A stretch of 64,000 nt of DNA from Gemmataceae bacterium. Its GTDB lineage: Bacteria > Planctomycetota > Planctomycetia > Gemmatales > Gemmataceae. Positions 47 to 50,239 of this stretch are shown here, one piece after another. The translations under genes and the position numbers were made by a program. A model generated the notes under the pieces. It was not told where the DNA came from and made no database searches. It saw nothing but the letters and a program-made list of their open reading frames with translations. Numbering within the stretch: position 1 is the stretch's first letter; each line of letters opens with the position of its first letter. The DNA lies in contig JALHPZ010000012.1 of assembly GCA_022842245.1 (NCBI GenBank), positions 75,103 through 139,102 on the forward strand, given 5' to 3'.

Positions 47-1048
47 TCAACCGAACTTGTACAGTGCCACCTTGTTGTGCCCGGCCAGCACGATCGAGTC
101 CCATTTCGGCGAGATCGAAATGTCGTGGACGTGCATCGGGGCCTTTTCCTGCTTGATCACCTTCTTGCCGGCCACGTCGAGGAAGGCGACGAACCCCTCG
201 CCCGCGCCGCCGGCGGCGAGGAGCCACGAGCCGTCCGGCGCATAGGCCAGTTTGTTCACGAGGCCCTGGCTCTTGTCGGTCACGATCTCGGCGATGCGCG
301 TTTCCTTCTGCCAGTCGAAGACCTCGACGCGGCCCTTGGCTTCGAGGTGGTCGATGTTGCCGATCTTCCCCGTGCCACCGACGGCGAGCTGCTGGCCGTC
401 CGGCGAGAACGCCAGCGACCGGACCCCGCCGATCGAGTGCAGCCGCTGCACTACGTCCCAGGTGTACATGATCGGCGCTTCGACCGTCTTGAGCTTCGCG
501 CCGGTGTTCGCGTCCCAGACGTTCACCTTGGCGGTCTTGTCGGCCGTCGCGAGGTACTTCCCGTCGGCCGAATACGCGACGGCGTAGAGCATCGACGAGA
601 AGTTGTGCGGCGTCTTCTCGGCGTGGCCGCGCAGTTCGCGCACCATCTGTCCGTTCGCCGCGTTCCAGATGCGGCAGACCATGTCGTCGGCGACGCTGGC
701 GATGAATTTCCCGTCCGGCGACGCCGTCACCTGCCGGATCCACTTCGCGTGGGCGGCGTGGCTGCGGATCTCCTTGTTGGCGGCCGTGTCCCACCAGACG
801 AGCTTGCCGTCGTACCCGCCCGAGACGAGCGTGGTGCCGGCGAGCGCCATCGACGTGACGTAGCTGCCGTGGGCGTAGAGTTCCTTCGGCTCGAACTTCT
901 TGTCGGTGAGTTCGCCTTCGCTCACCTTGAAGTCGGACGAGCCGATGAAGGCGCGGTCGGTGCCGGGGACACGCACGATCGTGAAGGCGATGGCCGGCCG
1001 GCCGTGGTCCTTGACGAGCTTCAGCGTTTCGGGATTCGGTGCGGTCAT
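47..1048 (-). CDS. WD40 repeat protein, cytoplasmic
   Basis: The 333-residue protein is a run of about six WD40-type blades, each with an SPDG-like turn and a closing W/F-D pair, for example around residues 60-100, 100-140, 145-190, 205-255 and 260-300. This predicts a beta-propeller scaffold or binding protein. It has no signal peptide or membrane segment, so it should be cytoplasmic. Planctomycetes carry many such propellers, often with unknown partners. It lies 39 bases downstream of the Uma2 gene on the same strand and may be co-transcribed with it. The ligand cannot be predicted. A G-rich run sits directly upstream of the start and a poly-C tract beyond the stop. Confidence 0.85.
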   Translation of the reverse strand: MTAPNPETLKLVKDHGRPAIAFTIVRVPGTDRAFIGSSDFKVSEGELTDKKFEPKELYAHGSYVTSMALAGTTLVSGGYDGKLVWWDTAANKEIRSHAAHAKWIRQVTASPDGKFIASVADDMVCRIWNAANGQMVRELRGHAEKTPHNFSSMLYAVAYSADGKYLATADKTAKVNVWDANTGAKLKTVEAPIMYTWDVVQRLHSIGGVRSLAFSPDGQQLAVGGTGKIGNIDHLEAKGRVEVFDWQKETRIAEIVTDKSQGLVNKLAYAPDGSWLLAAGGAGEGFVAFLDVAGKKVIKQEKAPMHVHDISISPKWDSIVLAGHNKVALYKFG

Positions 1049-1057
1049 GGGATGAAA

Positions 1058-1081
1058 GTGGGTTGGGGTGGGGTGGGTGGG
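1058..1081 (+). other. G-quadruplex-type motif
   Basis: Five G-runs of three or four (60-62, 65-68, 70-73, 75-77, 79-81 within 1000-1100) are separated by one- or two-base loops, the classic arrangement for a parallel quadruplex. It fills most of the 39-base gap between the Uma2 stop and the WD40 start, on the template strand of both genes. Formation in vivo is unproven. Confidence 0.6.
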
Positions 1082-1087
1082 AAGGAA

Positions 1088-1645
1088 TCAAGCCATGAGC
1101 CAATCGACGGAGACGCGCCAGCCGGGCACGGCCGGTTCGGCGTCGGCCTCGGTGCCGGGTCCGAAGGTCGCGCGCGTTCCATCGGCGCGATAGGCGTACA
1201 CCACGCGGGTGATCGGGTCGACGTCCCAGACGACCTTGGTGCCGGCCTCGAAATAATCGTCCCGCTTCGCCGCCATCTCCGCCTCGGCCGCCGGCCCGTA
1301 GTCGCCTTCGCTGCGGACCTCGACGGCGAAGTCGGGCGGGCCTGGAACGAACTTCATCCGGTTCGCGGGCAGCGGACCGGTGTAATAGGAGGCATCCGGC
1401 GAAAACGATTCGCGACCGGACGAAAGCTCGGGCACGGCGAAGCCGATGCCGTCGGAGAAAGCAACTCCTGTGTGTGTACTGTCGGCAAGATCGGCGAGTT
1501 TACGAAAGATTCGGCCCGCGACGACATTTGGCCTGTAGCCGGATGCCATGTACGTAACCACCCTTCCACCGATCAGCTCGGCCTTGCCCTCGGTGCGCAT
1601 CAGGTCGTCGAGCGTCGCGCGCGGCGGTGATAGTGTCCGGCTCAT
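1088..1645 (-). CDS. Uma2-family PD-(D/E)XK nuclease-fold protein
   Basis: The 185-residue protein matches the Uma2 (DUF820) family in length and motifs: SPDASYY at 82-88, PPDFAVEV at 103-110 and a K-RDDYFEAG-VVWDVDP block at about 127-144. These carry the Asp, Glu and Lys expected of the restriction-endonuclease-like fold. The family is greatly expanded in planctomycetes and cyanobacteria. Its DNA target and role are unknown, and links to mobile elements or repair are only suggestions. It stands between the acs gene (92-base gap) and the WD40 gene (39-base gap), all on one strand, with no restriction or methylase partner nearby. Confidence 0.85.
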   Translation of the reverse strand: MSRTLSPPRATLDDLMRTEGKAELIGGRVVTYMASGYRPNVVAGRIFRKLADLADSTHTGVAFSDGIGFAVPELSSGRESFSPDASYYTGPLPANRMKFVPGPPDFAVEVRSEGDYGPAAEAEMAAKRDDYFEAGTKVVWDVDPITRVVYAYRADGTRATFGPGTEADAEPAVPGWRVSVDWLMA

Positions 1646-1737
1646 GCCACGGTTCCCGATTCGGATTCACCTCCATCGTAACAGCGGCGACACCGGCGTG
1701 CCACCGCGAGTTCCCGGAAAGGCCGCCGGCGGGCGGC

Positions 1738-3687
<1,950 letters not shown>

Positions 3688-26345: not shown

Positions 26346-28172
26346 TCAGGATCGGTCCAGTCGGCGCGACAGTTCGAGGTCGGCGGGAAAGGTCGAGTCC
26401 CAGTGGTTCTCGGCGGTCCAGCGCTCGAGCATTTGGAAGCTACCCCGGAATCGCTCGGCCCGCATACCAGCCAGAATCGCCCCCTCGACGTTTTCGACAC
26501 GGTCGTCCATCAAAACGTGATGCCATGGCGGCAAATGTGTTTGGAGACAAATCTCGCGGAAAAACTTCGGGTCTGGCTTGCGTGAACGGATGCGGAACGA
26601 AAGGAACAACCGATTCGCCATGCCGATCAATTTCGGGTAATTCTGTTCGATCCAGGCCCAATGACTCTCGTTGGTATTCGAGCAGATCGCGACGGAGATC
26701 CCACGTTCCTGCATCTTGTGAATGAATGATTTGGCCTCCGGGTGTTCCTTCGAGAAGATGTTGTTCCAGATCATTCGGAATTGATCGAATGGGAAATTAC
26801 AGCTGAATCGCGTGCAGAATTCGTCGTGCAGCCATTCGATGCCGTGGTCGTTGGTTTCGAGGAGTTCGTTCCTGGTCCCGCCTTCGAGTTTTTCTTTGAA
26901 TAGAAAATGGTCGAAATCGTTTGCGTTCCATTCTCGACTCGGTTCGGTGTTGGTGAGGAACTCCCATATTTCCGTTGCGACCTTATCGTGGTTGAAAGGA
27001 ATCAGGACTTTGCCGAGATCGAGCAGGATCCACCTTCCTTGCCAAAGGTTTTCGAAGTGGCTGGCGCCGATCGCGTAGAGTGGCGAGCGGACATCGACAT
27101 GGACGTAGTTGATCGCATTGCCGACGGCGGAATTCAGGTATGGGTGAAAGATCATCTCTTCCTGATTGAACAGCATGTAACTCGCGATTTCGTAACTCGT
27201 CCGTATGTACAAGTTGTCGTGGATCTTCCTTGAATTCGTCGCCTTGTCCAGACTGTTCGTAATCTCACGGGCGGTGGCGACGACGTCTTCCCGTAGCGGA
27301 TTGAGTTCATAGGTTTCACGGGCGAACGCCGACGGGGAAGCGGGATCGAGATAGAGGACCCGCACGGGATTGCCCGCGCCGCCGTTGGGTTTGTACTTCA
27401 ACACGTCTTCGATCGCGGATCCGAACAAATTCCCGAACAGGTCGCGATTGGCCACGCCGGCAATCGTGAGCTGGCCGCCGGGCTTTTTGGCGTTCTTGAA
27501 AATCCGGTCCACGATCGTTTTCGCTTCCTCCGATGTTCTCGGTCCAATCAATTTTTGGACGGGGTCCACCGGTGGCAGATCTTCTAATTTGGCGTCCGTG
27601 TTCTTGCGCAGCATGAACAACTCGGCGAATCCCCAGTCTTTCACCAGCTCACGCAATCCGATCGAATCCAGAGCGTAGTCGGTGACCTGGAGTTCCATTT
27701 GTGTCTTGAAGGATCCGGTAGCCCAGATTTCGTTGAGGCGAACAATCGGTTCGATCCGTGCCGTATGCGTGACATTCATGCCAAATGCGTTGTTCCGATT
27801 CGTGAACGGATCGATTCCGAAAAAGACGGGAGCGGCATGCAAGGCGATCCGGATGCCGAAATCTTCCGGCGTCGTGGCCGTCGACATGTGTTCGGACCAT
27901 GACTTCTTGCGGAAGTACTCCCTCAAGTCCCAAGCGGCATCCGCCGCCACTCCGGGAGACTTGAACACGGCATAGATCGCATCGCCCCAGGTATTCACGC
28001 AAACAAGGTTCCTTCGCTTCAGGAACCTCGCCAGTTGCGGGAATACCAGACGGTTGAATCGCTGGAGCAGGTCGGGAGAGAGCTTGCTGTATCCCTTGAT
28101 GTCGGAAAACAGCAAGGCGACCATTTCCTCTTCTGCCACAATGGCGGAATCGCGGGAGGTAGCTCTGGCCAT
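26346..28172 (-). CDS. class III nucleotidyl cyclase - central domain - HAD hydrolase fusion
   Basis: I chose the ATG at 28172 (608 residues), the last one before the cyclase domain. Residues about 16-185 are a class III cyclase with metal Asp24 (FSDIKGYSKLS) and Asp64 (NTWGDAIYAVF). In the NVTHTARIE block Arg139 is kept, but the usual transition-state Asn position is Thr. Residues about 215-378 form a domain with LTIAGVANRD and VRVLYLDPASPSAFAR, possibly related to PLD-like sensor domains. Residues about 380-608 are a YihX-like HAD phosphatase (LLDLGKVLIPFN, AICSNTNESHW, RKPDPKFF, MDDRVENVEGA). The protein is soluble. The gene is A+T-richer than its neighbours. The cyclic product and HAD substrate are unknown. 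Confidence 0.8.
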   Translation of the reverse strand: MARATSRDSAIVAEEEMVALLFSDIKGYSKLSPDLLQRFNRLVFPQLARFLKRRNLVCVNTWGDAIYAVFKSPGVAADAAWDLREYFRKKSWSEHMSTATTPEDFGIRIALHAAPVFFGIDPFTNRNNAFGMNVTHTARIEPIVRLNEIWATGSFKTQMELQVTDYALDSIGLRELVKDWGFAELFMLRKNTDAKLEDLPPVDPVQKLIGPRTSEEAKTIVDRIFKNAKKPGGQLTIAGVANRDLFGNLFGSAIEDVLKYKPNGGAGNPVRVLYLDPASPSAFARETYELNPLREDVVATAREITNSLDKATNSRKIHDNLYIRTSYEIASYMLFNQEEMIFHPYLNSAVGNAINYVHVDVRSPLYAIGASHFENLWQGRWILLDLGKVLIPFNHDKVATEIWEFLTNTEPSREWNANDFDHFLFKEKLEGGTRNELLETNDHGIEWLHDEFCTRFSCNFPFDQFRMIWNNIFSKEHPEAKSFIHKMQERGISVAICSNTNESHWAWIEQNYPKLIGMANRLFLSFRIRSRKPDPKFFREICLQTHLPPWHHVLMDDRVENVEGAILAGMRAERFRGSFQMLERWTAENHWDSTFPADLELSRRLDRS

Positions 28173-28299
28173 GGAGGTGCCCGGTGGGAGGCGGTGGTGC
28201 GACCGGCCCCGGCATTCTAGCCGAACCCGCGCGGCGCCGCGACTGTCCGTTTCCCCGAACCGCATGAGTTCGTAGAATGCCAACTGGCGGTAATTGCTC

Positions 28300-28347: not shown

Positions 28348-28419
28348 GCCAGCTTAGCTCAGCGGTAGAGCAACGGTTTTGTAAACCGTTGGTCGTGGGT
28401 TCAATTCCCACAGCTGGCT
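28348..28419 (+). tRNA. tRNA-Thr (anticodon TGT)
   Basis: Full cloverleaf of 72 bases: acceptor GCCAGCT pairs with AGCTGGC, and anticodon TGT sits in a stem ACGGT/ACCGT. CCA is not encoded. It is the first of four tRNAs before tuf. Confidence 0.95.
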
Positions 28420-28451
28420 CTGGACCGACGACGGGCGGTGCGCGGATTCAC

Positions 28452-28534
28452 GGGTAGGTGGCAGAGCGGTCAATTGCACCAGACTGTAAATCTGGCCTCT
28501 AACGAGTTCGGGGGTTCGAATCCCTCCCTACCCA
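28452..28534 (+). tRNA. tRNA-Tyr (anticodon GTA)
   Basis: An 83-base tRNA with a long variable arm, acceptor GGGTAGG/CCTACCC, anticodon GTA in stem CCAGA/TCTGG. The long arm is normal for bacterial tRNA-Tyr. Confidence 0.95.
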
Positions 28535-28541
28535 CTGGGAA

Positions 28542-28626
28542 GAAATGCGGAACGCGAAGTGCGGAATTCGGAATGAAAACTGACTTTTGATTTCATTCCG
28601 CAATCCGAAATCCGCATTCCGAATTC
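28542..28626. repeat. imperfect hairpin repeat between tRNA genes
   Basis: The arms 28542-28578 and 28591-28626 are built from GCGGAATTCGGAATG-type units and pair imperfectly. It lies inside the tRNA operon, between the Tyr and Gly tRNAs. It is related to the hairpins at 30236 and 47569. Confidence 0.8.
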
Positions 28627-28632
28627 GAGCAT

Positions 28633-28704
28633 GCGGGCGTAGCTCAGCGGTAGAGCTCTTGCCTTCCAAGCAAGATGTCGTGGGTTCAAATCCCATCGCC
28701 CGCT
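28633..28704 (+). tRNA. tRNA-Gly (anticodon TCC)
   Basis: A 72-base cloverleaf, acceptor GCGGGCG/CGCCCGC, anticodon TCC in stem TTGC/GCAA. Confidence 0.95.
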
Positions 28705-28779
28705 CTGGCCAAATCGCTAAATCGCCCGTAAGACTCTCCGGGCCGATAAATTCGGCCGAGGGAGTCACTTTCCTCCTTT

Positions 28780-28854
<75 letters not shown>

Positions 28855-32922: not shown

Positions 32923-33505
32923 GGCGGGCGCTCGGGAAAGAGGTACGGTATGGATGAACGGTAAACCGTTTCTGAGCGGGCGTCAACGAGAAACACGGGC
33001 ACGGCGGCACGATCGACGGGGGCTTATTGCGTCGCGCGAGGAATGCAATCGCAAACGCGGCGGCTGTCACCTCCCGTGTTTTCGACCTACTCGAAACCCA
33101 GTTACCCGGATCACAGACTTTCCACATAAAGACCAAACCTTGGCTACCGCAACGATCAAATCGTTCTTCCCGTGGAACCCTTCAGGCCGCTGAACCTGCG
33201 GCTTTGGGAAGCGGGGGCAGTTCGCCGGTTTCCACCAGCGATTCCAAGGCCGACGGCGACGATGAGTTCGAGGAGTCCTGCCGCAAGATCGTCGAGTGTC
33301 ACGATCGTCGCCGTCGGTGCGACGGAGAGGATACCGGTGCGAAAAGCGCGGACGAACTACGGATCGAGGGAACCCGCCACGACGACAAATCGTCGCACCG
33401 AAAATGCACAAGCGCCGTTCCACGGGATGAAGGGTTTACGTTCAATGAATCCCGTGACGCGATCGCGAGGAAGTGAGGATCCTCGCGATCGCGGATACTC
33501 ATAGA
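32923..33505. other. 583-base gap without a supportable gene
   Basis: Several short frames are open on both strands, but none has a start with a ribosome site or protein-like composition. A minus-strand frame ending near 33191 reads like the end of a protein (LESLVETGELPPLPKA) and might be a gene remnant. A perfect 13-base hairpin at 33459-33492 lies just past the stop of the MJ0042 gene and may be its terminator. Confidence 0.5.
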
Positions 33506-49507: not shown

Positions 49508-49741
49508 GATCGCCCCCTTGGTCCGAGTACGGACTCCCCCAAATCCGGCCGGACAATAACGGGCCCCGGCTGCCTGTCAAGTAAAATCCACCGCTCAAAA
49601 TCCGCGAATCAGCGATCAACGCGAACCCGGCCCGCGCATTCGTTCGCACGCCTGCACATCGGCCGTTCCCACCGTGTCTGTTTCCTCCTCCGGATTCCGA
49701 ACCTGCTTGCGATGCGCTTCAAGGGTGGGTACCGTGTCGGC

Positions 49742-50239
49742 ATGATCCGCGAATCCGACGCCGCCAAGTGGTTCATCCTCGGCTTCGCCGGCCTGCTCGT
49801 GACCGGCTGCTCCAGCTACACCGAGTTGTGCCTGCTTCTCTTCGGCCACGAAGGACAGGCCAAGGTGACACGGACCCACGAGACCCGCTCCCGCCGCACC
49901 ACGCGGCTTACGGTCGAATACGAGTTCACCGACGGCGACGGACGCCTGCGGCGTGAAGACTGCACCGTCGCCCGCCGCACGCCCGTGCCCGGCCCTGGCG
50001 GCACCGTCGCCGTCCGCTTCTCCAACGGCCCCTTTCGCGCATCCCGCCTTGCGCACCATCCAAACTGGATCGGCCTCGGGTTCTCCGTCGCCGCCCTCGG
50101 TTCGATCGCGTACGGCGCATTCGTCGTACTCCGCCAGCGCCGAATCGAGTTCGAACGAGCCGAGCGCAACCGCGAGTGGGAGTCGTGGCTGCGGGAGCGA
50201 TCGGGGCGATCCAGCCCGGAACCACCGGAGTGGGATTAA
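49742..50239 (+). CDS. small membrane protein, DUF3592-like
   Basis: The 165-residue protein has an N-terminal hydrophobic segment ending in TGCSS, either a lipobox or a membrane anchor. A beta-rich middle part (EGQAKVTRTHE, RLTVEYEFTDGDGRL, VRFSNGPFRAS) and a second membrane segment (about 112-132) follow. This pattern resembles DUF3592. The ATG at 49742 is chosen because it leads directly into the hydrophobic segment; an ATG 30 bases earlier is possible. Confidence 0.6.
   Translation: MIRESDAAKWFILGFAGLLVTGCSSYTELCLLLFGHEGQAKVTRTHETRSRRTTRLTVEYEFTDGDGRLRREDCTVARRTPVPGPGGTVAVRFSNGPFRASRLAHHPNWIGLGFSVAALGSIAYGAFVVLRQRRIEFERAERNREWESWLRERSGRSSPEPPEWD

Follow-up and report, generated by a model that had tools for sequence, protein, structure and literature searches.

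Among the closest described systems are chains from the vWA-MoxR conflict systems, in which a cNMP cyclase, a Band-7 domain and a HAD domain lie in one polypeptide and the HAD domain, lacking its Lys, is probably inactive (PMC7159879). A chain of comparable build is encoded in the window, by which we mean the whole 64,000-nucleotide stretch of Gemmataceae bacterium contig JALHPZ010000012.1 analysed here: its minus strand at 26346..28172 encodes a 608-aa protein with a cyclase, a DUF5919-like middle domain and a YihX-like HAD domain. It shares with the described chains the cyclase, the HAD and a domain placed between them, but differs in the nature of the middle domain, in a HAD domain that keeps the Lys and in its setting outside any vWA-MoxR operon. 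The original prediction had held such a fusion to be novel; cyclase and HAD in one chain are not new, while for the exact order cyclase - DUF5919-like - HAD no named precedent was found anywhere.

The open reading frame, for which the original prediction named no strand, starts at an ATG at 28172, and an in-frame TTG upstream at 28283 offers an alternative start that would give 645 aa. Both outer domains score above their Pfam cut-offs, in agreement with the three-part, soluble 608-residue protein originally proposed, and a soluble signalling enzyme is the best explanation of what its sequence contains. It is a real, maintained protein rather than a chance frame, since it has a full-length three-domain relative at 55% identity with dN/dS of about 0.2-0.35 per domain. 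The roughly 100 bases directly 5' of the start codon (28180-28279) show 100% identity with the sister genome, above the mean of the flank, and are a probable regulatory region between the gene and tRNA-Thr, or else an N-terminal extension read from TTG 28283. Beyond them, in divergent orientation, lies a tRNA-Thr, Tyr, Gly, Thr cluster (28348..28852, plus strand) followed by tuf. The position of this cluster is kept across the family and that of the cyclase-HAD gene is not: in four genomes that are further removed, though of the same family or genus, this locus has the tRNA-tuf cluster with other genes in place of the cyclase-HAD gene.

A search of other genomes for the same domain order, as the original prediction had proposed, recovered it in the Gemmataceae MAG ACE_PLA22 (JAHBXO010000006.1), which belongs to the same genus, carries all three domains at the same locus and is the sole full-length relative found. 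It was also the only hit in a scan of 84,980 species genomes with exact short patterns, which distant members may escape, and among 392 genomes across the phylum a convincing middle domain occurs in the window's genome only; searches of plasmid, phage and viral-contig sequences for the full architecture returned matches to one domain at most. Two weak middle-domain matches among the 392 genomes were rejected: one is a fragment of a 2615-residue frame, and the other lies in a frame that contains stops.

Of particular interest is the comparison of the two sister copies. The window and ACE_PLA22 are collinear over about 63 kb at about 91-94% DNA identity (about 91-95% in the flanks of the gene), and within this stretch the block at 26420..28165 falls to about 60%, with sharp edges near both positions and identity back at 90-100% on either side; no other divergent block of gene size occurs in the length compared. 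The proteins are 49, 52 and 59% identical across the three domains, and dS is 1.35-1.80 in these domains as against 0.14-0.33 in neighbouring genes and 0.09 in tuf. The C-terminal tail (residues 584-608 and the stop, 26346..26423, minus strand) lies outside the divergent block, and its last 25 codons, at a dS of 0.24, are conserved like the flanks. For the three domains dN/dS is about 0.35, 0.26 and 0.19, values that call for caution as dS is near saturation but that argue for constraint on each. Synonymous sites have diverged too, which mutation alone at a single rate cannot account for; a divergent allele has probably taken the place of the gene body. Mis-assembly is an unlikely source of the edges, because two joins would be needed, both keeping the reading frame. 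The A+T-richness from which transfer had been suspected is confirmed (24 of 60 bases G/C at 26881-26940; GC 54.7% for the whole gene, 64-67% for its neighbours), though the jump in dS and the sharp edges are the stronger signs. GC3 is 0.71 in the window copy, as against 0.87 in its sister allele and 0.80-0.90 in the neighbouring genes; from this base composition we infer that the window copy, rather than the sister allele, is more likely to be the imported one. This probable, sharply bounded exchange of alleles is the most unexpected feature of the case and lay outside what the original prediction could see. If one signalling gene has been replaced while the tRNA/tuf neighbourhood around it stayed conserved, selection on that gene would be suggested, of the kind that acts on immune or recognition genes; the window and sister copies are two natural alleles that can be compared directly. 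Elsewhere in the window, two other short stretches (33001-33400 and 49601-50200) have no alignable counterpart in the sister MAG.

The middle, sensor-like domain (residues 205-380, 27033..27560, minus strand) is marked by VRVLYLDPASPSAFAR at residues 270-285, by FNQEEM..HPYLNSAVG and by HFEN.W.GRW. A profile search of this part against Pfam had been suggested at the outset; residues ~195-382 gave no convincing family match in Pfam, NCBIfam or PDB, and the domain had no direct match to the DUF5919 model (PF19319) up to E 10. By hhalign, however, a profile built from two sequences, the window and sister copies, aligns with the domain behind the HTH motifs of Streptomyces regulators (score 32.8, E 1.1e-4, probability 56%), against at most 23.4 in 400 column-shuffled profiles and 13.8 for the reversed profile. 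The alignment is collinear over 118 columns, reaches the end of the domain and includes the LYLDP..SP motif; the two differ in that the Streptomyces domain (L062-L066) is placed behind an HTH domain. The comparison set was gathered with a hand-written consensus as query, the sequences compared being real matches, and of two members tested one has a weak match to PF19319 (E 0.004). Domains of the DUF5919 type probably adopt a phospholipase-D-like fold. The likeness suggests that the middle domain is ligand-sensing. Four of the regulators, on Streptomyces plasmids (L062-L064, L066), stand directly before NUDIX genes in three cases and before a class IV adenylate cyclase gene in one. A PF19319 search of the phylum sample returned nothing, but its controls were silent as well, hence it is no sign of absence; AlphaFold models were poor (pLDDT 35.3 for the whole protein, 37.1 for the middle domain) because relatives are too few.

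These parts are best accommodated, in our tentative preference, by a cyclase gated by a metabolite, in a gene whose body has probably been exchanged for that of a divergent allele. The N-terminal class III cyclase, probably a homodimer, would make a cyclic mononucleotide; the middle domain would bind a ligand; and the C-terminal HAD domain would bind, and probably hydrolyse, a small phosphorylated metabolite, a sugar phosphate being the best guess. The ligand or substrate state of the C-terminal half, whichever the direction of gating, would then set the output of the cyclase, and the second messenger would thereby report on metabolism. The gene body would have been exchanged by homologous recombination, the donor being a lower-GC relative with an old, divergent version of the gene, while the promoter side and the ~25 final codons stayed in place. 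In favour of the gated cyclase, the key residues of both enzymes are kept in both alleles, dN/dS points to constraint on all three domains, small-molecule enzymes recur behind N-terminal cyclases of this subfamily (below), and the likeness of the middle domain is to the regulatory half of HTH regulators whose genes lie beside NUDIX genes; against it, the full-length members known number two, the middle-domain link is by profile alone (the 56% of hhalign), both AlphaFold models were poor and no receptor gene adjoins the cyclase-HAD gene. If the phosphatase half does gate the cyclase, the protein would be a compact means of converting a metabolite level into a second messenger. We regard as doubtful a bolder reading, in which the protein is a new one-protein switch: the cyclase would be gated jointly by the DUF5919-like domain as sensor and by a catalytically active HAD of the sugar-phosphate type, and planctomycete lineages would trade whole functional alleles, much as happens with immune genes.

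Of the cyclase relatives with a frame that was read, most begin with a long TPR-type part and end with the cyclase. Among these are two nearly identical paralogs from the genome that the window belongs to (L002, L003; PF20308 + PF00211, with Pfam TPR-S confirmed in one), which belong to the same subfamily by their N-[TS]-W-G-D signature, their Asn at the Lys site and their ARIEP motif, but differ in carrying the cyclase C-terminally, behind TPR-S and another domain, and in having no HAD. Both paralogs share a conserved middle domain (VVVFTGHMIDSPDR...CGGDILFAEAML) with a SLOG-like look. The clade nearest to the window cyclase (support 88/86) has the cyclase at the N terminus and includes L014, from a genome of the same family, where it is fused to a glyoxalase/VOC-type domain (988-2064, minus strand). 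On a Rhizobium beringeri plasmid a same-subfamily cyclase is fused to a NUDIX domain (L012:4980-6053); this one is more distant than L014, and on its long branch its placement in the tree is unsure. Both resemble the window protein in joining an N-terminal cyclase of this subfamily to a C-terminal small-molecule enzyme domain, and differ in that the enzyme is not a HAD and there is no middle domain. From these two fusions, an N-terminal cyclase with a C-terminal small-molecule enzyme is a recurring arrangement, and were the gating true, the window protein would belong to a series in which such a cyclase is combined with exchangeable C-terminal small-molecule enzymes (HAD, glyoxalase-type, NUDIX).

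A third member joined to TPR-S, in a Priestia aryabhattai plasmid cluster that looks like a defence cluster (L011:1216-10327; MBL-fold hydrolase, Pycsar effector, cyclase-TPR-S, RyR-domain and TIR genes), bears on the main rival to the metabolite-gated cyclase, a role in conflict with invaders, which we consider possible without thinking it probable. There the middle domain would sense an invader or its product, the cyclase would make an alarm nucleotide, the HAD would be an effector or modulator and the allele replacement would be the mark of an arms race. The joining of L002, L003 and L011 to TPR-S, the presence of Pycsar effector and TIR genes in the plasmid cluster, the occurrence of cyclase/Band-7/HAD chains in conflict systems (PMC7159879) and the turnover of alleles at a fixed locus all speak for it. 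Against it, the PADLOC PycC match of the window protein is at E 0.013 (12.6 bits) and the sister copy has none; no effector gene of the TM or TIR type adjoins the cyclase-HAD gene, whose neighbours are DUF1501, glycosyltransferase, tRNA and translation genes, tuf among them; and divergence extends across all three domains rather than centring on the middle one.

The class III nucleotide cyclase domain (residues 15-192, 27597..28130, minus strand) matches Pfam Guanylate_cyc (PF00211) over residues 15-155 (E 1.8e-7, 31.3 bits against a curated cut-off of 21.9) and, weakly, solved domains of the rhodopsin-guanylyl-cyclase type in the PDB (E 0.0035-0.018). It was aligned with 19 relatives from Planctomycetota and from the Rhizobium and Priestia plasmids. 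Both metal Asps, D24 and D64, are kept, as had been predicted, and they and the transition-state Arg, R139, are invariant in 20/20. The transition-state Asn and base-selecting Lys are canonical for adenylyl cyclases and not needed by every class III enzyme. Neither is present in the window protein (T135, N60), just as the original prediction read them, but they are no special feature, since the first site is N, S, T or V in the aligned subfamily and the second is Asn in 19 of the 20 (Glu in the other). On this alignment T135 and N60 mark the subfamily rather than an oddity of the window protein, and they bear on substrate rather than on membership of the fold family. The domain is thus ordinary for its subfamily; activity is predicted, and the nucleotide product is not readable from sequence.

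The HAD phosphatase domain (residues 381-583, 26424..27032, minus strand) matches Pfam Hydrolase/HAD at residues 382-569, or up to 571 with HAD models (E 2.6e-7, 31.7 bits against a curated cut-off of 26.4). Its likeness to YihX was rightly seen: in phmmer the best solved HAD relatives are YihX structures (2b0c, E 3.4e-16), and motifs I-IV (D385, S498-N499, K532, D556-D557) all align with the E. coli protein, an alpha-D-glucose-1-phosphate phosphatase (PDB 8pno, 2b0c) that is HAD-IA by sequence and has the same SNTN, RKP and DD. YihX differs in being a stand-alone protein, and the window domain, at 75 bits (E 6e-21) with NCBIfam PRK09456, falls well short of the 295 bits set as the equivalog cut-off; by these scores it resembles YihX and is not classed as a YihX glucose-1-phosphatase equivalog. 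It is unlikely that either enzyme domain is a non-catalytic remnant with a binding role only: Thr in place of the transition-state Asn, a motif I that lacks the second Asp (DLG) and the HADs of vWA-MoxR systems, thought inactive (PMC7159879), point that way, but DLG is found in E. coli YihX too, a named phosphatase, and the cyclase site commonly varies in a subfamily whose Arg139 is invariant. Given the aligned motifs and the shared DLG, the HAD domain is likely active on a phosphomonoester. That it removes the signal made by the cyclase, as first proposed from two opposing-looking enzymes in one chain, is highly improbable, since known HAD phosphatases cut phosphomonoesters, opening a 3',5'-cyclic diester would be foreign to the family and needs a phosphodiesterase, and the nearest relative is named for glucose 1-phosphate.

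Like an effector, a receptor gene is lacking beside the cyclase-HAD gene. Six further PF00211 matches occur in five other open frames of the same genome, and the receptor for the cyclase product may act in trans, as the genome also has one open frame with two cNMP-binding domains.
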